Shown piece by piece: positions 17,071 through 64,000 of a stretch of 64,000 bases of DNA. The stretch is taken from positions 124,001 through 188,000 of IMG/VR virus record IMGVR_UViG_3300042340_000379; one strand, 5' to 3'. Source of the DNA: a virus. Every line of letters starts with the position of its first letter. Positions within the stretch are counted from its first letter, which is position 1. The position numbers and the translations under genes are program-made. The notes under the pieces were generated by a model. It was not told where the DNA came from and ran no database searches. It saw only the letters and a program-made list of their open reading frames with translations.

Positions 17071-17122
17071 ATTACTTTTCTAGCTTTGTTTGTTTTATCA
17101 AAATGAAGACGGTCAAGGGTGG

Positions 17123-38700: not shown

Positions 38701-41700
38701 GTATGGAGCTTCTACGCCAGCGAGTAAACATTAGAAAAAACCTTAACGAGAATGTTGGGCGGTTAAAAGAAGAGCAGCGCGTTATTAAAAAAACTCGTGA
38801 GAGAGTTTTTAAGCAAGAACGGGGTGCAAACTACCAAGCGTATAGACTTGATGGGCTTAGCCAAAGATATAACCATGCTCAAGCTGAGATATATGGTGCT
38901 AGAGATAACTCTCAACGAGAACTGAGAGAGCTAAATCCTGAACTCAATCGATTGCGCAAAGATACAAAATTTATGCAGCGGCAGTTTGTTCAAAACAAAC
39001 TTCACCAGTTTGTTGTTGAAGGCCAGCACGTTTCTATCTTTAACAAAGAATTTATTGCTGGAATTGGCGCACGCGATGGAGTTGTGCAAAGCGAGCTACG
39101 AAGCATGATTGCTCAAGCTCCTGAGGGATTTGTCGAAGGACTTAGCTCAGGAGAAATTTCAGACCAAAACTACTATGACAAGTTTGTGTCAGTTCTAAGT
39201 AAAGTAGACCAGCAAGGTCAAAACATCTACAGAGCTGAGCTGGCCGGAATTGAAAGCGCAATGGGCCACGCTCTTAGAGATGGCTCAGGTTCTAGAAGCG
39301 ATCAGCGTCAAATCAAAAAATACATGGGGCGGCGAGCTGCCTTTAACCAAACTCAGCAAATTGGGTTTGACTTCAAACCTCAAGAATTCGCTGCTCTTCA
39401 AAAGCTTCAATCACTGACTGGCTACGTTAACAGAGCGGGTGGCCCTAGCGGCGGCTCTATTGTTAACCAGCAGCACTCAATCCAAAACGTTGAGCGTCTA
39501 AAAAACAAACAAGTCTCTGAAGGCAACCAACTCTCACTAGCTCTTGATGGAAACCAGACCGCGCTAATTGTCTCAATGTATGGCCGGTTTGGCGTGCAGG
39601 GCGGTGACTTTGACGGTGACGCTTACCAGCTCGTCTTTGGATTTAGAGACATTCAAGAGTCCTTAGTTAAATCAATCAACAAACGGAATCAGATGGAAGA
39701 TTCCAAATTGGCCCTTGAGCTTGAAATGGGGAGCGGGGAATATGGCAGAGATGTTCTTTTGCGTCGAGCCCAGCTTAGCAACCAAATTCGAGTTGAACAA
39801 CAAGGAATTGACGGTCTAATCGGAAAACTTGATAACCAATTCCAAATGGCTGGAGAGCAGATAAGCCAAGGTGTTCGTCGTCACGTCTCTTCTTTAACAG
39901 GTGTTCCCTTGTCAATTATGTTGAACAAGGACGTGTACAGTGATGAACAAGTCTCTAATATGATCGAGCAGCAACGGGGGATTACGCCTGGCTTAACCGA
40001 CTTTGGAGATTCTTATGGTGGCGAGGCCACGTCTTACGGCTTCTTATTCAACGACATTAACCAAGACCTTGGAAGTCTAAACGGAAGTCTTGGAGATTAC
40101 CTAGACACTAAATTGGAAGGAAAGCCCTACGGATTAGACAAAGCTCAGCTTAGCCAATTTAAGCAGTTGACAGAAGAAGCCATGTCTAAACTTGACTTGG
40201 TAAACTCAAATGCTTCTGAACGAGCCCAAGCCTTTGGAGTAGAGTTGGGAACTCTAAATAACCTGCGCATGAGTTTGGATACCACCCAAAAGTTCATTCA
40301 GTCAGCGGCGGGTACAGTTCTTGACATGAAGTCTTTTGATTTAATGCAAGATGCAATTGGTTATGTGGGTACTTCTCTAATCGGGGAAGGCTACAACGCA
40401 ATCACCAGCATGATAGGCCGGTCTACCCTAGCGCGAACTTTAGCTCATGGACTTGGCGCTGAGTCAATGGTCGGCTTAGACACCGCAGCCCTAAATCTTG
40501 GAGGACAAATTCAAGAAAGACTTGATTATCTATTTGCTGGTGGAGAGAAAGCAAATACGTCCAGCAATATTAAAGAGAAGTTCGCAGTCGATGAGATAAA
40601 ACGCACCGCCTATTTTGCTCAAGAGAAAAGCCAACAAATTAGCGGTAAGCTGACCATGATTCAGCAAATGATCCGAGACTCTCTAAAACCCAAAGAGGCT
40701 GGAGGTCTTATTGGAGCCATAGTTGATAACTCTGCAGATGGGGAAGCGTTCAGAGAAAAGTTTGACCGACTAGAGAAAAAGGAAGAGCGTTTAGACGCGC
40801 TACGAAACTTTGTGTCTACTAGAGCCGTTACCTCAATGGTAGATACAAATGAGCGGGGGCTCATCAACGCTTTTGGTGCCATCTTCTTAATGGCTGATTA
40901 CACCAAGGAAAGTTCTCCTGAGAAAATGCTTAGCGACAAATCTGATCGCTATAGTGTTCTGCGCCAAACTCGAGAGCTATATGAAAAACAGTCTTCCAGG
41001 CTTCAGCAAGGTAAAGGTTTAAGTTCAGATTTAGATACTATCACGCGCCTCCGTCTTCAAGACCCAGAGTTTAGAGACAAGATGGTAAATGATGATGGGT
41101 TCCTAATCCGTCAGACCGTTGTTGACTTAATCAATAGTGCTACTGCACAAGAGACAACCTCCAAATACTTAGGTTACGATGCTAATGATAGAGTTAGACA
41201 AGCCAACGTAATAAGAGAACAGTACATTGGTGCTTTAGCATCAGAGCGTGGACTTCTCGATGCTTCGTCTGACTTCTACTTTAAAAACGAGCAGCATCAA
41301 ATGGCTATGATGAGTGCTCTTAATATCAAAGAACAGGACATTCTTGGCTATACTCAAGGCCAAGTTCAGAATGTATTTTCAGATAGTAATGCAGCTTTTA
41401 AAGCTTTAACGGAAAGAACATTTGTTGAGTCAACTTATCTAGGAATGGGACAGGAAGACTTAGAGTTCTCCAGAAATGTCATTCAGGCTGGTCGCTCCTT
41501 AGAGTTTATGGAGTTTGGGAACCAAATAGCATTTGCGCCTTTTGCAGCAGCTCAAAGCGAAAACCTTGTAGCTATAGAACAGTTAATGCGTCGGGGTAAA
41601 TTAGATGACCCTGCTTTAATGAGAGAGGTTCAAATCAACAGCTCGGCAAGATTGTTTGATGCAATCGCCAAGGTCAGCACAAAACTTACCTCTCAGTATG

Positions 41701-42854
41701 GTTCTTTAGAATCAGCCATTAGTAAAGAGGAAGTGTATAAAGGCTATTCTCAAATGGCAGAGCTGGCTGGAGTATTTGATGTTAGTCGTGATGAATCTAA
41801 CATGCTTTCTTTAGCCATGGCAGCTAAACCTGACGGTAAGCAGTCTATCTTCGAGCAGCTTGCTGATTTGTCAGCTGGTCGCGCTAATGTTGAAGAGAAA
41901 TATAACCAAATTTCAGATATTCACCAGGAAATGAGTACTGCTACTGGAACTCGTAAACAGTTTCTAGAGCAGCATCTAGCTCTACTTGAAGGTTCACTTG
42001 ACTCTTATAGACAAGGAATTTCAACAAATGACACCAGCGCAGTAAGAACCGCACTGGCTGAAATTGGAAATAAAGAACGTCAATTTAGAACTGATCAGTT
42101 TAAAAAAGACGAGCGCGGCAGGCGGCTATTAATTCATAGCGCTGGAATGATGCACGTCGCGTCAGGTTCTCAAAGTATGGGCGTGGTCAATACGCTTGGT
42201 CTGTTTGCAGCCCCTGTTGTTGGAGCTGCTCTTATGAGTGGCGCTGGATTAGATGAGCGGCTAGTCCTGGGCGGGTACGATTTAATGCAGGGTCTATCTA
42301 CAGCTGAAGGATTTGCGGATAACAAAATGGCTCAGGCGACTAACAGCATGTTTATCATGAGCCGATTACGCCAGCAAATGGCCGAGCAAGAAAGTCTATT
42401 TCTAGGTTCTGTAAAAGGCGTAGCGACAGAAGCACTTTACACAGGCCTAGCAGGGCTCGCCAGCCAAGCGTCCACCAGCCTTATGCGAGCAGCCGGGGCG
42501 CGGCAGGCAGCAGGAGGTTTAGGATCCGCACTTGCTGAAGCAGTCGTGACAGCGGCTGCTTTAGCTTTTTCTCGTAAAGGAAGCCAGTATGGCGTTCAAG
42601 ACGAGGATTACAGTAGTCTAATGGCGCAATCTTTGTTAGACATGGCTCAGTCTACAGAGAACATGATACAAGCTATGATTGAGAGGGCCCAAGACATTGA
42701 GGTCGAAACAGAAGACCAAATTGTCACGTTTGACTTTGATGCATCTATGGCACCCACAGAATATGAAGAGCGGGTGACTGCTGGGTGGATTGAGTTCTCT
42801 GTTGCCTCTGATGAGTTTGATTCTGTCTACTCTGAAATTGGAAATTACGCTTAA
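32772..42854 (+). CDS. Giant DxDGD-motif protein, putative virion-associated RNA polymerase
   Basis: 3360 residues, unusually long. The key motif is GVQGGDFDGDAYQLVF with D2279, D2281 and D2283: the three-aspartate Mg-binding loop of two-double-psi-barrel RNA polymerases, in the GGDxDGDxY form typical of the QDE-1/RdRP-like and crAss-like phage polymerases rather than NADFDGDQ of cellular beta'. Residues ~1935-2060 are a long charged coiled coil. The C-terminus has two small-residue hydrophobic stretches (near 3137 and 3220-3265), which might interact with membranes. Location among morphogenesis genes and size recall N4 and crAss-like packaged polymerases, so ejection with the DNA is plausible. 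A tape-measure role cannot be excluded, as no other candidate is seen. Polymerase activity is inferred from one motif. Confidence 0.65.
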   Translation: MDPLFPELDPALIDNQNSEVREQIRRLEKSTPEDIARQELTTPDLNSIGISRGFRLHYGEVSDRPGTRYNMLGQKIYEPPTLAMESQVGFYEPVSVRANVSLDQSLQVRAVNAIDSINYGRSVLTGQQRTVTSGLNTMFGRQFRSLMYDQQVRAAGLMGLSREDTRALLGEPAVREGLYQDAGFRTPSLESIMENMGTGMPSAERISDINRMGFYADRYADPESVQKLYREVNQLKNALGDGIKSVEKRYAYRKVNGMYEKVLVGLKVGVRNYNDLFDGMGLYSGTSAPAVERETAFNFTVDSKGQVIELNTNRVISGSLMALGPSSISTIVGSSLIGGEGRRQSSSATALGLLATYARSSELEARHGVVDGVFNTMIAQGEYGALGRVFAEALVSRNEKYVASRGLKFGEVAGQMLSSVGHKDFKKGIHELIESISYRGLEYYSSLHTVFKESFDENTARMELFRNRQSLLTAAFDPLLNYTGGEGSRFDGLIDTTMKRVVDLIQSDSSTQRLKIAGQDVDISLFDDLKVAALNMSPTGRSAYDLRKSQVSRSILQLMMSPFLMPHESGYSGSQSSSRLGLFAMSETRGQRGMYELFAISPSKHTHGMKSTKPGEYYKPIGSQSAKSSVMKYIGGFYKFDDTAAKVAEFYETKTLFAGMPSLKRAKLDDIQIHMQKAGYKSSREIIEKYRAEMQLKEDKDIEVLLMPFRKPEQISQRLKNLVGGRPMLEIATGLRRAVMSQSGQQLRSYFSGGDYGVSLDVGKALSGNIPAALNDIQYQQMEQERSRIIAELGLDEKKITPRQQSELSRLLTSRMREIETQFNEGGGYIQGKAARLTMVGMGVNMLSDFMLVNQEYVNNTAFGYLHHSKFRVSATQNVRYEGVGRVTEADPYFDWKTNRLAEVFKAGTSIYLSPTPLKNERAMEILKKTAQSMRSEFLARGISKRESDAQVRRTLQSNFKFLESVDIKDGEVTNATMRAGAYSFDGNDMRFQGELVGSSLRLGMLPTNNRQRLGETGLSGATSLDFFDVKIPGVIRSVSKGLVTVANDINFAPSSGGYEADINFLVTSDIPSGSRSSSLTKGPWSMYESESFWARAREQAIQHSFVSKQTAQEGVFGILSPTAFKGYNYEAGLDILRDAESRRDLLAIPADQTAFLLGIAFMEKGEKGQRLKAAMREYAKTQSLGSSVGLLLEDVNSGSSIEKMRNLMLSTPDIIEFAGGQSLDQMGDYLAQRFETGDFDPIKKSLNRIVGKALDKSVQMEQYVEGQSSLVRTFQEGDFSVRSAGLVADVLNTTRQLIYGGMTVGDDPLQGYALVDKEKGARVDRFIEDKDFRAATLDIAQKMGVRSLLPSQLKLEGALSSLKEGDELYSQVESMLYLMHGHFSTSPLVARASNMLPSRILVAAGSEDAVALEFHYSLNLSKREFGMLRGTGVDIEKFTDLQAAYGVVATHGSANSTSRMMQVISPFSTDKTQAGVAKTMSRLIEGYNDFSGKFKFLGSVGNLSLLDEVVRSMVTGKTDRTLQLMASYDLANRALRHQKGLGQFTEQTVMNVAGAFNPGSLDLDSASFSQLADLANIYGVKGNTKEELAKGLRETGPILGRGIPYYGPSRNPFEIKRMAMARAVIDLSKRQKQKGHGSLVFGVTSDNEDVRDIMKRERLSAYGFGYSDFRQALDLVSDTQTGRLLSDGNGDKDHVQRIAGRLQDHDRSVELMMEKAAGTSDTESFVDVLYKVVSGAQQVIENTERGSDDYKRAERLRSEVYQTKSLLMPFVQTARDGSKGIISLYDPTEMGGQLRFTGTPAIRLGLDVLSKVPAQFEDHISEVVDRQRQIWEILPEFQSIMDRLTTGPIMDANLGEISVIEEMQRLAIQSQEDAALLFGSVMAQRSQGEKIKYPGVSFVAVADYLATPMEAFVGSRVMGTGLDQVVRDAQASLNGEERRNNRWEAERERLLKRAVTHSQSTEKSVQNKFKLAQRRRMELLRQRVNIRKNLNENVGRLKEEQRVIKKTRERVFKQERGANYQAYRLDGLSQRYNHAQAEIYGARDNSQRELRELNPELNRLRKDTKFMQRQFVQNKLHQFVVEGQHVSIFNKEFIAGIGARDGVVQSELRSMIAQAPEGFVEGLSSGEISDQNYYDKFVSVLSKVDQQGQNIYRAELAGIESAMGHALRDGSGSRSDQRQIKKYMGRRAAFNQTQQIGFDFKPQEFAALQKLQSLTGYVNRAGGPSGGSIVNQQHSIQNVERLKNKQVSEGNQLSLALDGNQTALIVSMYGRFGVQGGDFDGDAYQLVFGFRDIQESLVKSINKRNQMEDSKLALELEMGSGEYGRDVLLRRAQLSNQIRVEQQGIDGLIGKLDNQFQMAGEQISQGVRRHVSSLTGVPLSIMLNKDVYSDEQVSNMIEQQRGITPGLTDFGDSYGGEATSYGFLFNDINQDLGSLNGSLGDYLDTKLEGKPYGLDKAQLSQFKQLTEEAMSKLDLVNSNASERAQAFGVELGTLNNLRMSLDTTQKFIQSAAGTVLDMKSFDLMQDAIGYVGTSLIGEGYNAITSMIGRSTLARTLAHGLGAESMVGLDTAALNLGGQIQERLDYLFAGGEKANTSSNIKEKFAVDEIKRTAYFAQEKSQQISGKLTMIQQMIRDSLKPKEAGGLIGAIVDNSADGEAFREKFDRLEKKEERLDALRNFVSTRAVTSMVDTNERGLINAFGAIFLMADYTKESSPEKMLSDKSDRYSVLRQTRELYEKQSSRLQQGKGLSSDLDTITRLRLQDPEFRDKMVNDDGFLIRQTVVDLINSATAQETTSKYLGYDANDRVRQANVIREQYIGALASERGLLDASSDFYFKNEQHQMAMMSALNIKEQDILGYTQGQVQNVFSDSNAAFKALTERTFVESTYLGMGQEDLEFSRNVIQAGRSLEFMEFGNQIAFAPFAAAQSENLVAIEQLMRRGKLDDPALMREVQINSSARLFDAIAKVSTKLTSQYGSLESAISKEEVYKGYSQMAELAGVFDVSRDESNMLSLAMAAKPDGKQSIFEQLADLSAGRANVEEKYNQISDIHQEMSTATGTRKQFLEQHLALLEGSLDSYRQGISTNDTSAVRTALAEIGNKERQFRTDQFKKDERGRRLLIHSAGMMHVASGSQSMGVVNTLGLFAAPVVGAALMSGAGLDERLVLGGYDLMQGLSTAEGFADNKMAQATNSMFIMSRLRQQMAEQESLFLGSVKGVATEALYTGLAGLASQASTSLMRAAGARQAAGGLGSALAEAVVTAAALAFSRKGSQYGVQDEDYSSLMAQSLLDMAQSTENMIQAMIERAQDIEVETEDQIVTFDFDASMAPTEYEERVTAGWIEFSVASDEFDSVYSEIGNYA

Positions 42855-50847: not shown

Positions 50848-51138
50848 TTAATCGTCCATATCTAACTGTATATCAGAAAACTCAACCCCTCCTGTAGAAG
50901 GAGAAGATATTTTTGACTGCTGATATTCGTAAGCAGTTGGTGCATAGTTAGCCGAAAATGACGGGCTAGACGATCTAAGTTGGGGTTCCGGCATTTGTTG
51001 AGAAGTTCGATAGCTCCTAAGAAGAAAGGCAAATACTTCAACGTTAGTAACTTTTCTCGAGAATTCTTCTTTGCTTAGCTCCTGCCTGATGTTTTCTAAT
51101 TCTTCTTCTAGTTGACCCGTTAAAGCGATCTTTGCCAT
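50848..51138 (-). CDS. ParR-like partition adaptor (ribbon-helix-helix, putative)
   Basis: 96 residues, 6 bases after the stop of the actin-like gene, which is the parM-parR order. The N-terminal ~45 residues (KIALTGQLEEELENIRQELS, then a helix ending EVFAFLLRSYR) are compatible with a ribbon-helix-helix DNA-binding domain. The C-terminal half is disordered and ends in an acidic segment (FSDIQLDMDD), as in ParR, where the tail contacts the ParM filament. Sequence identity to known ParR is not evident; operon position is the main evidence. Confidence 0.6.
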   Translation of the reverse strand: MAKIALTGQLEEELENIRQELSKEEFSRKVTNVEVFAFLLRSYRTSQQMPEPQLRSSSPSFSANYAPTAYEYQQSKISSPSTGGVEFSDIQLDMDD

Positions 51139-51144
51139 CTTATC

Positions 51145-52227
51145 TTAGGCTCCCACTGTTACAGCATGTCGGTTTAAGTTATCCAATGCCATAATGTTAG
51201 CAAAATCAGGGTGCTGAGGAACATAAATTCCAGCATTTGCGGGAAGCCGACCTTTAAACAAGTAAGCACAGCCACCAAACAACATACGACCGGAAGTAGG
51301 AACAAACTGATTAAAGTTGTTTCGAATCTCACCTTGAACTAACTCAAAGAAGTTAGCAAGAGCATGCTTGGTAAGATCGGTGAAGTCGATCATCTCATTG
51401 TTGTCAGCAGGGTAAAAATAGGTAGAGCGCCCATTCTCTCCAGGAATAGGATTAGCCAGCGCAGTCATGACATCATCAAGGTCTAGTTGACCTCCAACAC
51501 GTTGGATCATCAAAGGATTGATTTTAATCATAGAAGCCAAAGCCTTACCACCAGCTAAAGTTGATCCTTTAACTCCATCATAGGAACTACGAAGTAGGAT
51601 GTTGTTGCGAGGGCCGATCGCAGTAATATCCAGTGTGCCGCCGCCAATGTCAGCGCCGATCACATTTCCGACAGAAGGAAGGTGGTTAAGTTCACGAGCC
51701 ATAATAATCGCGTCAACCCCTTCGGGCCGAGGAGCCTCAGGATAAATGCGAACTTTCATGTCAAATGTACCCTTGTCAGACGTATAGGTGTACTCAAAAG
51801 TATCAGTGAGTTTTTCGCGAAGGAACTCGCCTACAGTTCGGCCATCGGTTCGGCGCTTACTTGGGTCAGGTAGACTCCATTGAAGTACAACCTCGTAATT
51901 GGTTTTGTTTCCAATGGGGCCAAGAGTAGAAAGGAGAAAAGGAATAAAGTACTTGGGATCTAGCTTATCGCGGTTAACCAATCCACTCGCGGCGGCACCA
52001 TACTCAGAAGCGCGATCGCCAATATGAAAGCGACCAAAATCCCCCTCAACAATAATAGAGTCGCTGCCAGGGTCAATTGCGTCACCACCAGGAAAGATGG
52101 GAGCAACAATAGATTTTAGATAAATCGGCTGGGTGTGAATCCCATGACTAATAGCCAGAGTAGAAAAGTTGCCAACATCAATAGCGTGCTGAGTTTTCAT
52201 ACAAAAATTTGGGTAATAAGTGTTCAA
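51145..52227 (-). CDS. parM: ParM-like actin-family ATPase
   Basis: 360 residues from a TTG at 52227 that has AAGGGAG seven bases ahead; an in-frame ATG at 52200 (MKTQHAIDVG) gives the usual actin-like N-terminus and is a second candidate. Actin-fold landmarks: phosphate-1 loop AIDVGNFSTLAISHG, phosphate-2 loop GADIGGGTLDITAIG, and adenosine site MLFGGCAYLFKG. Such ATPases polymerise to push plasmids or phage-plasmids apart in cells, moving DNA through ParR bound to the centromere. A GGGCCC iteron array lies immediately upstream. A phage cytoskeletal role other than partition is possible. Confidence 0.72.
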   Translation of the reverse strand: MNTYYPNFCMKTQHAIDVGNFSTLAISHGIHTQPIYLKSIVAPIFPGGDAIDPGSDSIIVEGDFGRFHIGDRASEYGAAASGLVNRDKLDPKYFIPFLLSTLGPIGNKTNYEVVLQWSLPDPSKRRTDGRTVGEFLREKLTDTFEYTYTSDKGTFDMKVRIYPEAPRPEGVDAIIMARELNHLPSVGNVIGADIGGGTLDITAIGPRNNILLRSSYDGVKGSTLAGGKALASMIKINPLMIQRVGGQLDLDDVMTALANPIPGENGRSTYFYPADNNEMIDFTDLTKHALANFFELVQGEIRNNFNQFVPTSGRMLFGGCAYLFKGRLPANAGIYVPQHPDFANIMALDNLNRHAVTVGA

Positions 52228-52263: not shown

Positions 52264-52410
52264 GGGCCATAAAAGGCCCGACGCGGGCCCTAATCGGACT
52301 TTCTAGGGCCCTAAAGGGCCCAACGCGGGACGTGAAGGGCCCTTCACGGGACATAGACGGCCCGACGCGGGCCCTAAAGAGACCAAAAAGGGCCCGTGAA
52401 GGGCCCTAGG
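52264..52410. repeat. GGGCCC iteron array 1 (candidate parC)
   Basis: About 14 units of 10-11 bases centred on GGGCCC, or decayed GGCCC, GGGAC and GGAC, spaced about one helical turn apart (centres near 52265, 52275, 52286, 52297, 52307, 52317, 52328, 52339, 52349, 52360, 52370, 52381, 52392, 52402). Directly upstream of the parM-like gene, as is parC of R1-type systems with its 11-bp repeats. Confidence 0.7.
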
Positions 52411-52930: not shown

Positions 52931-52973
52931 AAAGGGGCCGCTAGATCTATTAGATCTAGCGGCCCCTTTTTTT
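52931..52973. terminator. 19-bp stem hairpin with T-run
   Basis: AAAGGGGCCGCTAGATCTA pairs with TAGATCTAGCGGCCCCTTT around a single T, then TTTT follows. Very stable and A/T-flanked on both sides, so it may terminate in either direction between the HNH-like gene and the tandem repeats. Confidence 0.8.
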
Positions 52974-53432: not shown

Positions 53433-53804
53433 ATGTCTATCTCTTCTTTTCTCATTCCATCCATTAAAGGACTAGTCAAGCTAGGACTGCAAGACAGCAA
53501 CCCACTGTGGGTGCATGACTGTATTCATGCACACGTATCTACACAACTACCACCCATACCCATGGGTACACACCAGGTGACTGGTGTTGATGGTCTATCC
53601 ATCAAGGAGTTCTGGGGTACACACCCACACACACCTACCTACCCAGGTGAACTAGATGAGGCACGGGTTGGGATACATCAGTTCCTAGCCTCACCACTAG
53701 GTAGCCCTTGCTACCTAGCTAGGTACATCTACTGGTGTACCTACCTAGCCACACAGGGTATCAACCCTGTGATGGTGACCTATCACCACTGGAGGTCTAT
53801 GTAA
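53433..53804 (+). CDS. Hairpin-tiled small gene, hypothetical protein
   Basis: 123 residues preceded by AAGGAGAACACATC (strong ribosome binding site). The product is rich in His, Pro, Tyr and Thr (HDCIHAHVSTQLPPIPMGTH, CYLARYIYWCTYLATQG) and I do not recognise a family. The DNA is notable: its coding sequence is made of adjacent perfect inverted repeats (for example 53511-53532, 53570-53587, 53587-53605, 53697-53718, 53720-53743, 53752-53771). The ORF is intact despite this. CTAG and CCTAGG-like words are frequent. Translation is supported by start context and absence of stops. Confidence 0.55.
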   Translation: MSISSFLIPSIKGLVKLGLQDSNPLWVHDCIHAHVSTQLPPIPMGTHQVTGVDGLSIKEFWGTHPHTPTYPGELDEARVGIHQFLASPLGSPCYLARYIYWCTYLATQGINPVMVTYHHWRSM

Positions 53805-55492: not shown

Positions 55493-58400
55493 ATGAAATC
55501 CTTCACCAAATCTCTGAATTCTTTTGTTACCCGCTCCTTCTCTGTGGGTAAGCGCCAAATGATCTCTAAGGTCAAAATCGTTCACTCTAAGCGCGAGTTC
55601 ATCTCGCGTGTTTCTGGCACCTTTCGCCAGCGCTTGAACCCTGCTACTCCAAAGTCCATTTTTGCTTGGGACGATGTTCAGCTCTCCTTAGCCTTTACTT
55701 ATGGCCAAGGTTCTCTAGGAATCAAAGCTGACCGCGCCAACGCTGGCATTGGGTTTGGTAGTGATACCAAACCTAAATCTAAATCTGTTAAGTCCGATTC
55801 CATCAAAATCGCACACACCTTTAAGGAGATCCTCGCCCAAACCAAAGCTACCGCTGTCAAAGTCTTCGAGGCCATTTCCACCGTTTCTAAACTGATTACT
55901 CCCGATCTTCTGCTCTCTTCTACAGGTAAGCAGCTCTATGGAGCTGCTCTTAAAAACCGGATTGCCAAACTTGTTCGTGAGGGCTACGCAGCCCCTGTTT
56001 CTCAACCTGCAGCGGTAAAGGCCGTTGACTTCATGGCGCTTGCTCAAGAGCGCTGCGCCCAAAGCCTTGCTGCGATCGAAGCAGCTATGGGCTTCACATC
56101 CACGGGCACCGTTGTGGCCATGCTTCAATCCGGCCAGGAGCCTGCGCCCATTGCGCGGCAGTCCGCCTCAAATATGGAGAACATCTCATTGTTTGAACTC
56201 AGGGCAAAAGAATTTCCAGCTCCTTCTGTCGAGGAGCTAATGTCTGACCTAAATGGCGATCGCGCCACCCGCGCTGAAAAGTGCAAAGCCATCTTGGCTA
56301 AGCACAACCTCAACACAGTTGGTGAGCTGATCGCTCGCGGCATGGTGTCTCGCACCCGCAAAGACTTCTGGCTCGATAGTGCAAGCACTGCGTTCAGTGT
56401 GATGCTACTGGGCCACACTCTTGGCCAAATGCCCGCGCCTCTGGACTTCAAGGCTGGGAATACCTACCTGGTAGGTTTCCCTCTGTTTGATCGCACCTCT
56501 GGCGACAAGCAGATTTCCCCGTACAAGTGCGTCATAGGAGATATCGATCTCCTGATGGCGTCTGTTCGTAGAGAAGAGCACGACATAAAGAACCTATCTT
56601 CTCCTGCTACCAAGAAGGTGTTTAAGAAGCACTTTAAGGTGCTAGAAGATAACTGCAAAGCCCTGGGCCTGTGGTTGTCTAAGGACGAAGTGGCTAACAT
56701 GGCCGCTGCGTTGGCCATTAATGAAGTGGCTACCAAGCCCACCACTTTCGCGGTGCTGGCTTCCCACCTCTGCGAAGTCCTTGATGCTATGGGCATGATG
56801 CCCAACCGCGTGTATGCGGTGAATGCTGCGTGGAACCTTCCCCGCTACAAAGCGGATCGCGTTATTGTGCGTAAGTTGGTAACCGCACTGCTGCGGGCCC
56901 AAGAGGGCATCGGCATGACAGGGTTCAAGTTCATCGACATGTCCACCAGCGAGCAAACTGGTGAGCTATTTGATGAAGTCGTTATCTGTGGCCAACGCTT
57001 TGTCATGGATGACGAAGGCGTTATCTTTGATGACGCAGGTACATCAAAACGGCTAAACCAGATAATGTTGGCTGCTCCCATTAAGGTAGGCCGCAGTCTA
57101 CACCCCAACGAGTTCTCTATCTTGAGCGCTCACGACGTGTTGTTGTATCTGCTGGACAACATTGTGCTGCCCATGCTCAACCGAAAGGATGTCAAATCTG
57201 ACAAGAGCTTGGAAATCAGCCGTGTTGAGGAAACCAACGCTCGTGCTGCCCAGTCCATCAAATCGTTTATTGGCAAATCCATGCCTCTAAACGAGCGGGC
57301 TGTTGCGCTTGGTGTTGAAGATGCTGCCTCCAGCATTCTGACCAGCGGCGAAATCAGCTGCGTTGTCAAGTGGCATCAATCTCTCTTCCGTCGCAACATT
57401 GCGGCTGAGGGTTCAGCAGAGATCGCCATCTTCAAAGAAGGCATGCTAGTTGGGCCTGATAGTCCCTACAAACGCTCGGCTGATGCTACCGAGTATATGA
57501 TCTTTAGCCAAATGGAGTTAAAGACCTCCACCAATTTCACCGACTATCACCCTCTCATCGAGCCTATGATCGCTCATGGCAAAGTGATTCAGCCTTTTGG
57601 CAACATGAATGCTGTAAGCCTTTCTGCTCACGGTACTCACTATGCCAACCTTGATGTGAGCATTCAGAAAGAAGCTGTCAAAGCTTTCTGGGCTAACCAA
57701 GGCCTTGATGAGCAACAGCTGCGCTCTAAGTTCAACCTTGAAGGTGTAGTCGGTGATGTGTGGATGCACATTGCTGAAGAAACCCTCAACTTCTTGTCCT
57801 ACAAGGGCTCTAAGCGTTTCAAGCGCTCGGCTAACTTGTACGCTCAAGTCACCAGCTTCGCGTTTGAAGAGACCAGCCGCTTCCAGTGGTCTGGTCACGT
57901 TGATCACCAGATCACCGGCCTGGCGCTCAAGGCTGTGTTAGCTCCTAGCTACGTTTTCTCTGGGCCTGGTATGGCCTATATGAACTCGCACAAGCGTGCT
58001 CAATACGAGATGCGCTACCCCTTGGCTGGTGGCATGCATGACTACTACGATCGCGCTGCTGTGTTCAGTAACTTCGCGATTGATGATACTGCTATCATCA
58101 CCAATCCTCTCACGGGCTGGAGCCATATTGACCTGGACATCAAAGTCCGGGAAGGGCAGGAGACTGGCTTGTTTATCGTGAACGAACATGGCCATCAGGT
58201 TCCTCTAAAAGCTGAGCACAATGGTGTGCTTTGCAAAATTCGTTTCCGCACTGTCGATAAGTTCTCCGTTAACGGCGTATTGGAGTGTCGCCTCTTTTAT
58301 AAAGTGTCTGAGTACGACTTCAAACTGCGGGCTGGCTATAAAGCCATGACTACCTATCATGACGGGTCGATCTTTGACCATAACGCCTACGCTCCCGAGT

Positions 58401-60982
58401 GGGACATCATCATCCCTGGTGATGCCAACAAAACCCTCGACCTTTTAACTTGCTTCCTCCCCGAGGCTGCTGAGTCATTCGGTCGCGCTCCTGAGGGCAC
58501 TTTGGTTGATGGCGTTGATGTACGTGCCCTGCTGCGTTCACTTAATGCTGAGGCATTTGGTCGTGAGGGCATCATTAAAGATGCGCCCAACGACAGCCTC
58601 TATGTCAACATGCTCATGTTGAATGAGGGTCGCTACGAGCAACTCCGTAAGTTGTTCATGACCGCATTTGGTCAAGTTATATGGATGAGCGTTGAGTCTG
58701 TAGAAATGCAGATCTTTGTCAACAAATTCTATTCTGCCAACGTTGCTGGTGGTGGCAAATGGCGCGAGCTGTCTGAAGCTGAGCTGGAAACAGTTGCTAA
58801 AGATGGTCTACCCAAGGGTGCTCGCGGCTTCTGCGACACCGCTGATATCAATGACCAGAGCAACATTCTGGTTACCTACACTGAGAACGGGAAGTGCATG
58901 TCCCTTCACCGTCAGTGGGTCTACGCTTCCACGCCCGAGCTTGGCATGTACATGCTAGGTAAGCCTGAGTACACAACTGTGAGCCAGGCCGTTTCTGAAT
59001 CCAGCGTTATGGGCAACGTCATCTATGACCTGGCCCTACGTAGCAACAAAGCTGCGTTGGAATTCGTCAACCGTGGCGAAATCAACCGCGTGCGCTACTC
59101 TCTTATCCATCGCCTAGCAAAAGGCCTTCCTATTGCTATTGATGGCGGCGAAATTCCTGTGATGAAAATCCAGGGCTCGATCGCTGAAATCGTGGGTAGT
59201 TGCAGCGCCAACTTGGCTGCTGCATACGCGGAAGGGCCTAACCAGTTCTTCCAAGTACTCCTGGAAATCTGCCAGGACAAAGTGCTGCGCTTTGAAGCCG
59301 ACAACAGCACCTGGGTTAGCATCTACCTCCCTCTTCTCGCTTCTTACGGCGGGCAGGATCTTGAATCCAACGAAGGCATGACTCTTGCTAGCAAAGTCTA
59401 TGAGTTGATGACCTCTTGGTACAACGGGGCCGACCCTAAGTCTCAGGGCATCAAAGTCATCGCGGGGGAAATCTCCAAGATGATGAATAAGTTGGCCGAT
59501 GGTGGCCGGATGCAGAAGTCTTTGACCTACGGCCCTAAAGGCGTAGGTTTCAAGGTCGCCGCATTGCCCAACATTCCTACTGGGGAAGTGTGGGTCTATG
59601 CTGGCGGTGAAGTCTTTGCCAAAATGCGCAAGCTGTTTGGCAAAGACTTTGCTGAAAACGCCAAAACTGGCGATAGCTACATCGGTCTGGTGCGTGCGCC
59701 TATGACTCGTGTTGCTGTGCTCAAAGTCGTAGTCATCACCAAAGATGACAACCGCGCCTTGGCCTACAAACTCAATGGCGTGCAGGGCTACATCAGCCCA
59801 TTCTCCCAGTATTTCAACATGGGAGACTTTGACGGTGATGGTGACTTGTCTATGGACGTTAGTGATATCGTCCGTAGCGGTGAGCTTCAACAGGACTCTT
59901 TTGCGTCCATGCTCAAGTTCCAGCGGGAAACCCTGGGCTACGACATGATGCTACCCGAGTTCTGGAAGTCTGCTGCACCCGAGCAGTACTACGCCGACCA
60001 CTTCTATGTACAGAGCTACACCTCTGTCATGGCTAAAATCGGTGGGCGCGGCCTGAACTTGGAATCTTCCGAGAAGGCCAACGTCATCACCCGTGCTCAA
60101 CTGCTAGCCGGTGAGCACGGTGCAATCGGTCAGCAGACCGGCTATGTGTCCAGCTCATATCAAACCCAGTTCTTTATCACGCTGGCAGCTGAGATTCTGG
60201 GTCACCACAACGTAGCTGCATTCGAGTGGATTAAAGGCTCCACCTATCAAACCCAGGCCTTGTACGAAGTAGCGTTAGGCGGCTACTCTCCTGATATGTG
60301 CCGCGTGGCGTTTGGTCTTCTTGACCGCGCCTTCCGTTTGAGCACCACTCAAGATTGGTGGCTAAAGCGTGTTGACGCTGAGGTTGCCGGTATGTTGCTT
60401 GACGGTACCAAGCACACAGCTTCTTCTCTCCTAGGTACCGAGCCTATGGATAAAGAGAAGACCCTGTTCACTTCCCTGAGTGAAGGCCAAGTGTTCCCCG
60501 CAATGCAGGCTTGCGGTTTTGGCTGGAATGGCTTTGAGGATGACCGCAACCAAGTGCAACAGTTTGTTAAAGCTGCTGCGCTCGCTGGCGTTGCTAAAAA
60601 GCGTGTCAGCGAAATCAAGAACGATGATGCTGGAATTGGTAGCGGCACCTACCAAAAGCTGGTGAAAACCTACGGCAAGAACATGGCCCTTGTCATGTGT
60701 CTTGCTCAACGTCTAATGGACATCAGCCGTAATAAGGCTGAGTTTGGTAAGGACTACGACAACGAACTCCGCGCTGAACTCGACCAAATGCTCAAAGGTG
60801 TTAAAAGCGATTCTATTTCCGTCGATCTCTATCGTCGGATTGAGAAGACCCTAGACGACTCTGTGTCCGCAGAAGTCGTAAGCTATGACAGCGCTGCTAT
60901 CAACAAGCTTTGCCGCTTTGTTGAAACCGAAGACGCTGCTCCCATTACTCTGGAGGTTGCTGCCCAAGTTATCGCCAATTAA
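55493..60982 (+). CDS. DFDGDGD-motif RNA polymerase-like protein
   Basis: 1829 residues, leader CTGGAGAACAAACCC. The motif GDFDGDGDLSMDV with D1445, D1447 and D1449 follows a basic strand pair (RVAVLKVVVITKDDNRALA, GVQGYISPFSQYFNMG). This is the three-Asp metal loop of two-barrel RNA polymerases, closest in form to the QDE-1/YonO/crAss-like phage group. N-terminal ~500 residues are basic and Lys-rich; later parts have large helical blocks. No sigma, zinc ribbon or separate subunit is obvious, so it would act as a single chain. Codon use and G+C differ from the 3360-residue gene. Antisense open frames within it are shadows. Polymerase activity is inferred from the motif. Confidence 0.7.
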   Translation: MKSFTKSLNSFVTRSFSVGKRQMISKVKIVHSKREFISRVSGTFRQRLNPATPKSIFAWDDVQLSLAFTYGQGSLGIKADRANAGIGFGSDTKPKSKSVKSDSIKIAHTFKEILAQTKATAVKVFEAISTVSKLITPDLLLSSTGKQLYGAALKNRIAKLVREGYAAPVSQPAAVKAVDFMALAQERCAQSLAAIEAAMGFTSTGTVVAMLQSGQEPAPIARQSASNMENISLFELRAKEFPAPSVEELMSDLNGDRATRAEKCKAILAKHNLNTVGELIARGMVSRTRKDFWLDSASTAFSVMLLGHTLGQMPAPLDFKAGNTYLVGFPLFDRTSGDKQISPYKCVIGDIDLLMASVRREEHDIKNLSSPATKKVFKKHFKVLEDNCKALGLWLSKDEVANMAAALAINEVATKPTTFAVLASHLCEVLDAMGMMPNRVYAVNAAWNLPRYKADRVIVRKLVTALLRAQEGIGMTGFKFIDMSTSEQTGELFDEVVICGQRFVMDDEGVIFDDAGTSKRLNQIMLAAPIKVGRSLHPNEFSILSAHDVLLYLLDNIVLPMLNRKDVKSDKSLEISRVEETNARAAQSIKSFIGKSMPLNERAVALGVEDAASSILTSGEISCVVKWHQSLFRRNIAAEGSAEIAIFKEGMLVGPDSPYKRSADATEYMIFSQMELKTSTNFTDYHPLIEPMIAHGKVIQPFGNMNAVSLSAHGTHYANLDVSIQKEAVKAFWANQGLDEQQLRSKFNLEGVVGDVWMHIAEETLNFLSYKGSKRFKRSANLYAQVTSFAFEETSRFQWSGHVDHQITGLALKAVLAPSYVFSGPGMAYMNSHKRAQYEMRYPLAGGMHDYYDRAAVFSNFAIDDTAIITNPLTGWSHIDLDIKVREGQETGLFIVNEHGHQVPLKAEHNGVLCKIRFRTVDKFSVNGVLECRLFYKVSEYDFKLRAGYKAMTTYHDGSIFDHNAYAPEWDIIIPGDANKTLDLLTCFLPEAAESFGRAPEGTLVDGVDVRALLRSLNAEAFGREGIIKDAPNDSLYVNMLMLNEGRYEQLRKLFMTAFGQVIWMSVESVEMQIFVNKFYSANVAGGGKWRELSEAELETVAKDGLPKGARGFCDTADINDQSNILVTYTENGKCMSLHRQWVYASTPELGMYMLGKPEYTTVSQAVSESSVMGNVIYDLALRSNKAALEFVNRGEINRVRYSLIHRLAKGLPIAIDGGEIPVMKIQGSIAEIVGSCSANLAAAYAEGPNQFFQVLLEICQDKVLRFEADNSTWVSIYLPLLASYGGQDLESNEGMTLASKVYELMTSWYNGADPKSQGIKVIAGEISKMMNKLADGGRMQKSLTYGPKGVGFKVAALPNIPTGEVWVYAGGEVFAKMRKLFGKDFAENAKTGDSYIGLVRAPMTRVAVLKVVVITKDDNRALAYKLNGVQGYISPFSQYFNMGDFDGDGDLSMDVSDIVRSGELQQDSFASMLKFQRETLGYDMMLPEFWKSAAPEQYYADHFYVQSYTSVMAKIGGRGLNLESSEKANVITRAQLLAGEHGAIGQQTGYVSSSYQTQFFITLAAEILGHHNVAAFEWIKGSTYQTQALYEVALGGYSPDMCRVAFGLLDRAFRLSTTQDWWLKRVDAEVAGMLLDGTKHTASSLLGTEPMDKEKTLFTSLSEGQVFPAMQACGFGWNGFEDDRNQVQQFVKAAALAGVAKKRVSEIKNDDAGIGSGTYQKLVKTYGKNMALVMCLAQRLMDISRNKAEFGKDYDNELRAELDQMLKGVKSDSISVDLYRRIEKTLDDSVSAEVVSYDSAAINKLCRFVETEDAAPITLEVAAQVIAN

Positions 60983-60985
60983 TCG

Positions 60986-61146
60986 CTAGGGCCCTATAGG
61001 GCCCGCAAAAGTCCGATTGGGGCCCAACGCGGGCCCTTTACGTCCCGTGAAAGTCCTTTTAGGGCCCGCGTTGGGCCTTTCATGTCCCGTCGAGGGCCCT
61101 AAACGTCCCGCAAAAGTCCGATTAGGGCCCGTCAAGGGCCCAACCC
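60986..61146. repeat. GGGCCC iteron array 2
   Basis: About 15 units of 10-11 bases, GGGCCC alternating with GTCCCG and GTCCGA forms (centres near 60990, 61001, 61011, 61021, 61032, 61042, 61053, 61063, 61073, 61085, 61095, 61106, 61116, 61126, 61137). Same unit type as the array upstream of parM. It begins 4 bases after the polymerase stop. Confidence 0.75.
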
Positions 61147-61473
61147 CTATTTTGCTGCGCTCTACCCTGCGCGGTTAGAGGGGGAATGTTAGTTTTATTT
61201 GTTTGTTGTTAGCAGGTTTAGCTAATGGCAGTGGGTCTGTGTGTTATGCGGTTGGGCGGCAGGATGTAGATGCTAATAGGTATTTATGGCAGCACTATTA
61301 TTTAATTGGAGCCTGGTCGCAGCGATCGCGCTGTGTATCTGGCTCGACAAATGATTTGCCGACTGCCGTCCCCTGTGCGCGATGCGTTGGGACGGCAGCG
61401 GGAGAAAGAAACGCAAATTGCCGTGACTTAATGTCCGGCAGTTTGTAATCCGTTGAATTAGAGACTTGCTGCT
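61147..61473. other. Gap with hairpins and no supported gene
   Basis: An 81-codon frame (61203-61448) has no ribosome binding site and unusual composition, and ends within hairpins. Present are CTGCCGTCCC / GGGACGGCAG at 61363-61398 and TGCCG / CGGCA at 61419-61440, the latter followed by GTTTGTAATC. HIP1 occurs at ~61321. Confidence 0.5.
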
Positions 61474-62154
61474 ATGTCTACTTCCTCTTCTGTCTACACC
61501 GAAAATTTCTCCCTAGAGCACGAAGTCACTTGCAGCCACTTTGCTGCGCAGCTCGCAGCCAAAACTGAAGGTCGCTGTCTGGAAGTCTCTCGTGAGCTCG
61601 TCCGTGGGAAAGATCACGACGCGCTCTTTAGCCTAAGCTGCATTTTCCCAACCGAGAGCGATAATGGGGTTGTAGTACAAATCGCTCTCAGTGGGTACCT
61701 AGATGCGTCTAGTATGAACATCAATGGAAACCTGTATAGGATGGCCGTGCCGTTCACAAAAGGTGACCAGCGCCAGACTGACAAGCCCATGCGAATCAAG
61801 ACTGGGGCTATGAAGCCTCAGGAGTTCAAAGGTCTTCTCTCTGACGAGACCATTCTCGAGTTGCAGAAGTGGGCGGAGTTGAATGCTGGCGCAAAACGCG
61901 CTAGCTTTGACCTGGAGATTCCTGAAGGGGTGGATCTGTATTTCACTTTGTCCTTCCGTAAAGGAAAGGAAAACCCTTATGCAGTAGACCCGCTGCATAT
62001 CCTGAAAATGGATATCATTGGTGGTCTCTTGCAGGAGGTTGAGAAGCCCTATGGGACAAAAGTTGGGGGTGTGGAGGATTCCCGTTTAGCTGCAAAGAGA
62101 GCTGCCCTTGCTGCTTCCACCCTGCCCACGCCTGCTGACGATGACGTGATGTAA
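61474..62154 (+). CDS. Hypothetical protein after the polymerase
   Basis: 226 residues. An early strand-helix unit, a middle with VVVQIALSGYLDASSMNING, and a repeated strand pattern (SFDLEIPEGVDLYFTLSFRK) suggest a beta-sandwich. The C-terminus is a Lys/Ala helix followed by a short acidic tail (LPTPADDDVM); an acidic tail after a beta domain is reminiscent of single-strand DNA-binding proteins of phages, but no sequence motif proves that. Its terminator hairpin follows at 62168. Confidence 0.55.
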   Translation: MSTSSSVYTENFSLEHEVTCSHFAAQLAAKTEGRCLEVSRELVRGKDHDALFSLSCIFPTESDNGVVVQIALSGYLDASSMNINGNLYRMAVPFTKGDQRQTDKPMRIKTGAMKPQEFKGLLSDETILELQKWAELNAGAKRASFDLEIPEGVDLYFTLSFRKGKENPYAVDPLHILKMDIIGGLLQEVEKPYGTKVGGVEDSRLAAKRAALAASTLPTPADDDVM

Positions 62155-62167
62155 GGTTCTATGCAAG

Positions 62168-62205
62168 CTGCCGTAATCCTACAATAGGGTTGCGGCAGTT
62201 TGTAT
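62168..62205 (+). terminator. Terminator-like hairpin, CGGCAGTTTGTATTC type
   Basis: CTGCCGTAATCCT pairs with AGGGTTGCGGCAG (13 bp with two G-T pairs), loop ACAAT, then TTTGTATTC. One of four similar elements at 61419, 62168, 63039 and 63483. Confidence 0.65.
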
Positions 62206-62224
62206 TCACTCTTGGAGAAATCCC

Positions 62225-63031
62225 ATGAAAGCTATGACCATCATCCTGTCTAATGCCTTGACTGAGCTAGTTTCTTCTGCAGGAAACTGGGACGAGCAGA
62301 AAAAGGTAGAGACCTTTCAAGAGTCACTAGAAGAGTTATCTCGCAAAGGGGAGCTTCCCCTTTGCGAGATAACGCTAGACATAAAAGAGAGCCGTAATTA
62401 TTACGGCTTGATCGCCTATCTCGAAAATGTCAATGTCTCTCTCTTTGAGAGAGGCTTTCGGCAGACGACTGTCGAGAGCTTCAAGGTCACGACACCCTAT
62501 TCCATCAAGGAGGTGAGGAACAAAATCCTCAAATCCTTGCTTACCAATTCAGCGGTTGTCCCTGCTGAATTGGTAAAGTGGCTCAAATTTGAGCCACTGG
62601 TGTTCGGGCTAGACAAGAATTTCGTTCACGGACTCGCACCAGGTCACTACTCAGGGGAAATGCTGATAGTGAAAAAGGGGCTGTTCGCAAGAACACCCTG
62701 CTATCCCATGCCCATTAAAGATACGGAAGGCTGGGAATCAGCCTTCATTGATGGAACGTATGTATACAAGACGCCCTCGTCTTGGAGTGCGAGTTTGGTC
62801 TCGCGTGAAGATGAGGATAAGGCTGAGGCTAAGGCTGAAGCCGATGCCTCAATCCAGCAGATTGAGAAGGCCCAGCAATACGTAGGCTGGACAATCAGCG
62901 CGATCGCCAGTGGAATAGTCACTCTTACCTCTCCAACTGGAGAAGTAACTCAATTGACTTCCAGACACAGTGTCTGGAATTATGGGGATAATTCCGAAGA
63001 CTGGATTGATATAGGGGGGATCTCAATCTAG
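62225..63031 (+). CDS. Hairpin-tiled gene, hypothetical protein
   Basis: 268 residues, leader CTTGGAGAAATCCC before ATG 62225. The protein has an N-terminal helical region (NALTELVSSAGNWDEQKKVE), a strand-helix middle with KEVRNKILKSLLTNSAVVPA and a C-terminal strand pair (SGIVTLTSPTGEVTQLTSRH); not recognised. The DNA consists largely of consecutive perfect inverted repeats, including an 18-bp stem with 3-base loop at 62335-62373, a 13-bp stem at 62541-62576, a 22-base palindrome at 62577-62598 and a 10-bp stem at 62959-62979. Yet the frame is open, so selection acts on both protein and structure. Confidence 0.6.
   Translation: MKAMTIILSNALTELVSSAGNWDEQKKVETFQESLEELSRKGELPLCEITLDIKESRNYYGLIAYLENVNVSLFERGFRQTTVESFKVTTPYSIKEVRNKILKSLLTNSAVVPAELVKWLKFEPLVFGLDKNFVHGLAPGHYSGEMLIVKKGLFARTPCYPMPIKDTEGWESAFIDGTYVYKTPSSWSASLVSREDEDKAEAKAEADASIQQIEKAQQYVGWTISAIASGIVTLTSPTGEVTQLTSRHSVWNYGDNSEDWIDIGGISI
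62270..63028. repeat. Chain of coding-region stem-loops
   Basis: At least 15 stem-loops. Main arms: 62335/62356 (18 bp), 62390/62401 (8), 62437/62447 (7, TTT loop), 62514/62526 (6), 62541/62564 (13), 62577/62588 (11, no loop), 62726/62739 (8), 62767/62778 (7, CCCT loop), 62930/62938 (6), 62959/62970 (10), 62976/62988 (8, GGGG loop). Confidence 0.8.
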
Positions 63032-63038
63032 TTTCCAT

Positions 63039-63072
63039 AAACTGCCACTGGCGATCGCGCTGGCGGCAGTTT
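63039..63072 (+). terminator. Terminator-like hairpin after the hairpin-tiled gene
   Basis: AAACTGCC and GGCAGTTT close a stem around a HIP1 octamer (GCGATCGC); TTTGTATTC follows. Same terminal motif as at 62168. Confidence 0.6.
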
Positions 63073-63192
63073 GTATTCAATCGAGGCAACCACTACTCAC
63101 CCCTGAGCCTCGCAGGGAATGCCCAAGAAAACCACTTTAATCATTTAGCGCACCGCCGGGAGTAGCGCCCCGGCATTTTGGGAGATACCATC

Positions 63193-63405
63193 GTGGACGC
63201 CGAAACCGCATACGAATGTTTTGTTGGATCTATAACGCCTTTTGAATTTGTCGATAAATTTGACTGTTTGGGCGATGCTATTAAGCAGCTAATAGCTGAA
63301 GAATGGTGGGCTGGCACAGGCCAAGTAGCCCCTGACAATCTGGCTGAACTCATTCGTGAGTACGCTGCCGATTGGTTAATTGCTAACTATGAGTCTATCC
63401 TATGA
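63193..63405 (+). CDS. Small acidic hypothetical protein
   Basis: 70 residues from GTG 63193, chosen because GGGAGA lies 8 bases ahead; a TTG at 63178 is also in frame. The protein is helical and acidic (LGDAIKQLIAEEWWAGTGQV, NLAELIREYAADWLIANYE). The type resembles phage-encoded inhibitor proteins, but no family is recognised. An ATG (63402) overlaps its stop and begins a 29-codon frame ending at 63491 within a hairpin region, with low support. Confidence 0.5.
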   Translation: MDAETAYECFVGSITPFEFVDKFDCLGDAIKQLIAEEWWAGTGQVAPDNLAELIREYAADWLIANYESIL

Positions 63406-63446
63406 CCACTACGCCTGTCCCTATGCCTAGACTCCCTGCCCGTATA

Positions 63447-63470
63447 GCCCAGGCGATCGCCAGCCTGGGC
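63447..63470. repeat. Hairpin with HIP1 in its loop
   Basis: GCCCAGGC and GCCTGGGC close an 8-base loop (GATCGCCA). It lies before the 63483 terminator. Confidence 0.6.
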
Positions 63471-63482
63471 ATAACTACCCTA

Positions 63483-63510
63483 CTGCCGTGACTAGGAGTC
63501 ACGGCAGTTT
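63483..63510 (+). terminator. Terminator-like hairpin, 11-bp stem
   Basis: CTGCCGTGACT / AGTCACGGCAG, AGG loop, then TTTGCTGTC. Fourth element of the CGGCAGTTTG class. Confidence 0.7.
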
Positions 63511-63529
63511 GCTGTCAACAAAAGCCAAC

Positions 63530-63823
63530 ATGTATATTCCAGAACTCGACTGCCTTAGAACAGAAATTGTTCATCGGAGGCTTACAGAGGACAAAAACTT
63601 TTACCTATCTGTTCGAGAGTCTCTTTCGAGAACCAGTGGCGAGAAAGACTATGACCGCTTTGAACATTGGAGTCATGGGTTTGAAAAGCGGCTTAGAACG
63701 GCTACTGCTAGAAAAGATATGAGAGCCAAAATGAGGGAGGAGCGTAGATTCTCAGCTCTCTTCCGTGAGGGCTGGTTAGCTTGCGATCGCCTTCTTCAAC
63801 CCGAGTTCTATCCCAACCCCTAA
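63530..63823 (+). CDS. Hypothetical protein
   Basis: 97 residues from ATG 63530; a GTG at 63488 would begin within the hairpin and is less likely. Very basic and helical (RRLTEDKNFYLSVRESLSRT, KRLRTATARKDMRAKMREER), with a charged C-terminus. A DNA- or RNA-binding role fits the charge, but there is no motif. Followed by a gene with an AAGGAGAGGT ribosome site. Confidence 0.55.
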   Translation: MYIPELDCLRTEIVHRRLTEDKNFYLSVRESLSRTSGEKDYDRFEHWSHGFEKRLRTATARKDMRAKMREERRFSALFREGWLACDRLLQPEFYPNP

Positions 63824-63841
63824 CCCAATAAGGAGAGGTTA

Positions 63842-64000
63842 ATGGTTATTACCTATAAAGTAAAAAGTCTCACAAGCAGCGGTTGCTTAGTAGAACCCCC
63901 TAATTGCGGGCCCTACTACAATCTATACCGTCCGTTTAGCAGTAGCTTTGAGAGTGAAGAGAGTGCTCTCGCTGCCATACATGAGTGCCTGCTGAAGAGC
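63842..64000 (+). CDS. Hypothetical protein (partial at right edge)
   Basis: ATG 63842 with AAGGAGAGGTTA before it. 53 residues visible (MVITYKVKSLTSSGCLVEPP, NCGPYYNLYRPFS, then an acidic helix). The frame is open at the window edge. No family can be judged. Confidence 0.5.
   Translation, partial: MVITYKVKSLTSSGCLVEPPNCGPYYNLYRPFSSSFESEESALAAIHECLLKS

Follow-up and report, generated by a model that had tools for sequence, protein, structure and literature searches.

The window analysed here, a stretch of 64,000 nucleotides, comprises bases 124,001–188,000 of an IMG/VR virus record of 207,855 bp. The two ends of this record repeat each other over about 144 bases (1–144 of its start segment and 19711–19855 of its last segment), with one G-run differing by one G, and carry an 18-bp perfect hairpin; the 207,855-bp genome is therefore probably complete. 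The tail sheath resembles its counterpart in Microcystis phage LMM01 (30% match). Two kin records were used for comparison, one of 172 kb (G397, capsid candidate at 82%) and one of 195 kb (G399, capsid candidate at 57%). Below, the present phage is designated A and these kin phages B and C. A 19.9-kb piece of phage A recovered from another metagenome was 100% identical, and the gene described here (62225–63031) lies outside that piece. This gene is located in an accessory segment of elevated GC, most of whose gene complement is not the same in A as in B. Cyanobacterial HIP1 sites (GCGATCGC) occurred at 0.9/kb over 61000–64000 and further along the record up to position 205,000, versus 0.1/kb in the core, which suggests that the HIP1-rich segment is host-derived or host-adapted DNA.

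Several other features were observed in the window. Two giant ORFs, 32772–42854 (3360 aa) and 55493–60982 (1829 aa), contain GDFDGD motifs which, read by eye, resemble those of two-barrel RNA polymerases. Searches of PHROGs, NCBIfam and PDB sequences, and of Pfam for the 1829-aa ORF only, gave no informative match, and homologues of the two ORFs were found in phage B at 41% and 34–38%. An actin-like gene (50848–52227, Pfam ALP_N/Alp7A-like) is adjoined by a small ORF (52270–52410) that may be its partner. Just upstream, GGGCCC-containing units are arrayed at a spacing of about 21 bp, and similar arrays (for example, 60989–61140) are met at intervals of a few kb as far as the record's end; the gene and the arrays may form a segregation system with dispersed sites. 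A perfect 19-bp intergenic inverted repeat with a 1-nt loop (52931–52969) is followed by a T-run and is terminator-like. Besides, a family of intergenic hairpins ending in GGC(A/G)GTTTG, often then (A/T)TT, occurred shortly 5' of the next start codon in both A and B. Members were found in the window at 61436, 62193, 63064 and 63502, and about ten highly similar ones were located in phage B (14900–19800 of the segment examined). These hairpins are candidate terminators, processing sites or promoter elements.

The ORF at 62225–63031 (+ strand, 268 codons) follows a 226-aa orphan ORF which is not stem-rich (61474–62154, + strand). Just past its stop codon is a member of the intergenic hairpin family (63039–63072, + strand) ending in GGCAGTTTG, which is probably a terminator or processing signal outside the coding chain of stems. 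Read in frame, the ORF scored +0.059 for codon usage, against −0.41 to −0.92 for the five alternative frames, and this phage-like usage indicates that it is probably a real gene. Inside the arms of its stems, codons agreed less closely with phage usage than in the remainder of the gene (−0.05 versus +0.13), a difference that counts in favor of template switching. No homologue was detected in viral contigs, genome contigs, plasmids, phages or the kin phages B and C; no strain variant was found in the collections searched, and 386 cyanobacterial genomes gave neither a DNA nor a protein match. Matches of the 268-codon protein to Pfam and NCBIfam models (E 0.01–0.06) were below cut-offs and were dismissed as noise, as was a match in one cyanobacterium (E 3e-4) that contained internal stops. 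Structure prediction from the single sequence was uninformative (mean pLDDT 38.8). The 268-codon ORF probably represents a genuine and rapidly evolving accessory gene carried by a large cyanophage.

Within this coding sequence we found seven perfect arms of at least 8 bp (18, 13, 11, 10, 9, 8 and 8 bp, with loops of 0–10 nt). Counting maximal perfect arms with loops of up to 20 nt, there were 20 arms of at least 6 bp, 10 of at least 7, 7 of at least 8, 5 of at least 9, 4 of at least 10 and 2 of at least 12. The longest stem has an 18-bp arm and a 3-nt loop (62335–62373) and is followed by a 9-bp arm with a 1-nt loop (62390–62408) and a 7-bp arm with a 3-nt loop (62437–62453, CTCTCTC/GAGAGAG). 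Further on, a 13-bp arm with a 10-nt loop (62541–62576) directly abuts a loopless palindrome with an 11-bp arm (62577–62598). The remaining stems are an 8-bp arm with a 5-nt loop (62726–62746), a 10-bp arm with a 1-nt loop (62959–62979) and an 8-bp arm with a 4-nt loop (62976–62995), the last of which overlaps and competes with the 10-bp stem. A sequence-only reading of this DNA had described the gene as a chain of perfect stem-loops, and its named stems (18-, 13-, 11- and 10-bp arms) were all present where it had placed them. It had counted at least six arms of 8 bp or more (seven in our count) and had noted correctly that the frame runs through them without a stop, seven short stems being kept within one open frame. 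Its remark that each stem differs also held, the arms not being repeated elsewhere in the genome.

We compared these counts with three kinds of shuffled sequence, one of them a synonymous null which preserves both protein and codon usage. The mean number of arms of at least 8 bp was 0.28 in dinucleotide shuffles, 0.20 in codon-order shuffles and 0.44 in synonymous shuffles; the sequence-only reading had estimated well below one for random sequence. Arms of at least 9 bp averaged 0.04–0.16 (5 observed) and arms of at least 12 bp at most 0.01 (2 observed). Under each of the three nulls, 0 of 400 shuffles reached the observed counts. The sequence-only reading was thus upheld by the codon-preserving comparison it had proposed, and chance or composition was ruled out as the source of the stems. 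The gene also stood out from its own genome. The coding rate of the record is 0.27 arms of at least 9 bp per kb, so that about 0.2 would be expected in 62225–63031 where 5 were seen; the Poisson probability (uncorrected) is about 4e-6, or 1.5e-4 at a doubled regional rate. Among the 183 ORFs of the record, called by longest-ORF heuristics, the gene was a clear outlier for long arms. Only the 123-codon ORF at 53433–53804 had a higher density of arms of at least 8 bp, all of them 8–9 bp; this ORF is coding-like, has its own run of inverted repeats and lies between long intergenic hairpins. None of 560 ORFs drawn from four comparison sets (cyanobacterial contigs, TnpB-like loci and parts of two cyanophages) had as many as 5 arms of at least 9 bp; the highest number was 4.

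The excess was specific for close-set inverted repeats, and close direct repeats of the same size were much less enriched; perfect, short inverted repeats beyond both chance and direct repeats are what template switching is expected to leave. We rejected a tandem or dispersed repeat as the identity of the stems, as their arms are unique in the record. Nor did they behave as dispersed REP/MITE-like palindromes, with no DNA match in the 386 cyanobacterial genomes or in phages. Intrinsic terminators, GC-rich stems followed by a T-run, are normally intergenic, whereas these stems lie inside a CDS, and terminator-like sites in the region were at shuffle expectation (3 versus 2.8). The long hairpin gave an Rfam match to a miRNA model, which was antisense and far under the gathering score. 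In addition, 62896–62913 and 63045–63062 form an 18-bp inverted match that was initially attributed to copying across 131 nt. This was discarded, the match being an extended form of the HIP1 motif, which is present again at record position 188,770 and at other sites.

A milder excess was seen across the genome and in related phages. Coding arms of at least 8 bp, observed over synonymous expectation, numbered 100/47 in A, 93/39 in B, 95/39 in C and 39/14 in 50 kb of LMM01, that is, 2.1-fold in A, 2.4-fold in B and C and 2.7-fold in LMM01; a Microcoleus phage showed 1.7-fold, and sampled cyanobacterial contigs 1.3-fold (61/45). The Microcystis phages offered a comparison between relatives. In LMM01, the gp020 gene (annotated as thymidylate synthase; 15717–17192 of the segment examined) contains coding stems of 17, 11, 10, 9 and 8 bp. 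Its alignment to MaMV-DC and MaMV-CH01 revealed 38–40 substitutions in 1476 nt, 13 of which fell within 31 nt, with 7 in one 10-nt arm. This cluster forms a perfect 10-bp hairpin in LMM01 only, and none in MaMV-DC or MaMV-CH01. At two further gp020 stems, LMM01 has perfect pairing where both relatives carry a single mismatch. Of 365 testable clusters between LMM01 and MaMV-DC, 3 had a nearby reverse complement as template in just one of the two phages; distant and direct controls gave 0. Between MaMV-DC and CH01, no reverse-complement-templated clusters were found, and there were 14 direct copies. Over 35 stems of the Microcystis phages, the substitution rate was 0.039 in arms and 0.029 at random positions, and pairing is therefore not protected. 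The strongly compensated stems (21216 and 33704) are intergenic by annotated gene limits, as terminators would be, and most changed stems inside CDSs were broken in the relative. The clusters, few in number, are consistent with footprints of template switching but are not proof of it, because the direction of change is unpolarised.

Most tests of mechanism drew on the full set of coding stems in A and B, because 62225–63031 is without relatives, and it is from these that we infer how its own stems arose. One explanation is that the transcript has been selected to fold, with a chain of local hairpins that would protect the message, adjust its translation or act as a substrate for processing or attenuation. 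The coding sequence indeed folded about 9 standard deviations better than synonymous shuffles (z −9.4 on the + strand). However, the antisense strand folded equally well (z −9.1), and the gene includes loops of 0–1 nt. Loop sizes of the A and B coding stems were evenly spread, with about 4 stems for each loop length between 0 and 20 nt and about 1.2 beyond 30 nt. This lack of preference, for strand as for loops of 0–20 nt, is as expected of template switching. Arm GC was not enriched (0.453 versus 0.454 for the genome), and past the perfect arm complementarity fell at once to random (0.20–0.32). Selection on mRNA would be expected to tolerate G-U more than C-A on the coding strand; across the coding stems of both phages, G-U boundary mismatches did not significantly exceed C-A ones (34 versus 26, p=0.37). 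In the gene itself, for arms of at least 9 bp, stems including one or more G-U pairs somewhat outnumbered those with C-A (11 versus 5), a non-significant difference which is a weak hint of RNA-level selection and speaks against template switching. Selection on mRNA would also be expected to conserve or compensate stems in homologues. In A/B orthologues, any counterpart stem was found for only 8 of 50 stems, with local identity slightly below the gene average, and arms in the Microcystis phages evolved at or above the background rate. Strand symmetry, pairing, geometry, specificity and conservation all fit short-range template switching and fit RNA-hairpin selection poorly, and we regard a transcript selected to fold as unlikely.

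Other explanations involve the surroundings of the gene. The stems could act in single-stranded form, as DNA or RNA, and be recognized by phage proteins, for example as a substrate or decoy for the nearby polymerase-like proteins. Stem-dense ORFs do cluster beside the second polymerase-like gene, with p=2.6e-7 in phage B and a weak signal (p=0.06) in phage A; however, this zone was picked after the data had been seen, phage C had no obvious clustering on inspection, the stems share neither sequence nor loop, and coding stems are not conserved. Clustering at the polymerase gene is accordingly not claimed here, and signals of this kind appear quite improbable. A broader version, in which the accessory zone beside the second polymerase-like gene either undergoes locally raised, perhaps transcription- or polymerase-linked, palindrome-making or bears hairpins selected as single-stranded signals read by phage proteins, with 62225–63031 as the extreme case, we consider distinctly unlikely. 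It is improbable, too, that the stems were made elsewhere and came with a gene taken from a cyanobacterial host or plasmid with palindrome-rich DNA, the process being that of the donor. The HIP1 richness and higher GC of the accessory segment would suit such an origin, but the 386 cyanobacterial genomes contained no match, and the excess in sampled cyanobacterial coding DNA was smaller than in the phages. Finally, the gene comes from a metagenome assembly and is an orphan with an uninformative predicted structure, as might be the case for an assembly artefact or a non-coding stretch misread as a gene. This is highly improbable given the single open frame with phage-like codon usage, the repeated record ends, the similar stems in kin phages from other metagenomes and the identical 19.9-kb piece, even though that piece does not cover the gene.

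The explanation we favor, with a fair though incomplete degree of confidence, is that template-switch (quasipalindrome) mutagenesis has acted on an accessory gene under weak constraint. A replicating strand would briefly pair with, and copy, a nearby complementary or nascent strand, so that 8–18 nt would be overwritten by the perfect reverse complement of a neighbor within about 20–30 nt. Such a process would operate at a low rate across the whole genome and in related cyanophages. The density in 62225–63031 is above even the regional rate and an extra local cause is therefore needed; weak protein constraint, perhaps together with a locally raised rate, may have let several events persist with the frame unbroken. 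On this view, the process seen elsewhere would also have made the stems of this gene, and low constraint rather than function would account for their density. Of the three origins offered by the sequence-only reading, a template switch that keeps perfecting palindromes is the one best borne out, by strand symmetry, perfect-then-random arms, flat loops, non-conservation, the genome-wide excess and the clustered difference between Microcystis phages. Selection of mRNA or single-stranded DNA to fold gained no positive support, and a decoy or substrate for the DxDGD polymerases gained none either, there being no motif common to the stems and no obvious clustering in one of two kin phages.

Similar patterns have been described in other systems. 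An excess of coding inverted repeats in prokaryotes, attributed to sequence-directed mutagenesis, has been published and is discussed in PMC4060949, which also cites the rival view of selection on RNA. The present phage resembles these cases in having short perfect inverted repeats in coding DNA above codon-preserving expectation, here about 2-fold genome-wide. Unlike the published excess, which involves 6–9-bp arms spread over genomes, this gene has arms of up to 18 bp at more than 10 times the coding rate of its genome. Local RNA structure has also been reported to be under widespread selection in the coding regions of bacteria (Katz & Burge 2003, cited in PMC4060949). The likeness is that 62225–63031 folds better than codon-preserving shuffles; our signal differs in being strand-symmetric and perfectly Watson-Crick, with no preference for loop size or GC. 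In mitochondrial genes of Nematomorpha (hairworms), coding palindromes with gains and losses between relatives have been reported and template switching proposed (PMC6649704). Both systems have many perfect inverted repeats in protein-coding genes and binary, perfect-or-nothing pairing, whereas the hairworm arms reach 284 bp in conserved respiratory genes and those found here are 8–18 bp in an orphan phage gene. Template switching has been documented as a maker of hairpins (PMC8794818) and as a source of coding changes in yeast (PMC8604942). The clustered substitutions that produce a perfect reverse complement in LMM01 gp020 are like the cases in these two sources, and for 62225–63031 the same mechanism is likely. 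The gene is a dense new example of a known phenomenon, at extreme density, and not a new kind.

If this interpretation is right, template-switch mutagenesis has left an unusually rich natural record in 62225–63031. The Microcystis phages, of which several genomes have been sequenced and whose thymidylate synthase gene is rich in hairpins, are a ready system for measuring the rate and direction of such events. The interpretation would also call for caution in inferring RNA function from strong folding scores, and would mean that short hairpins can pile up in phage coding DNA without any function at the RNA level.
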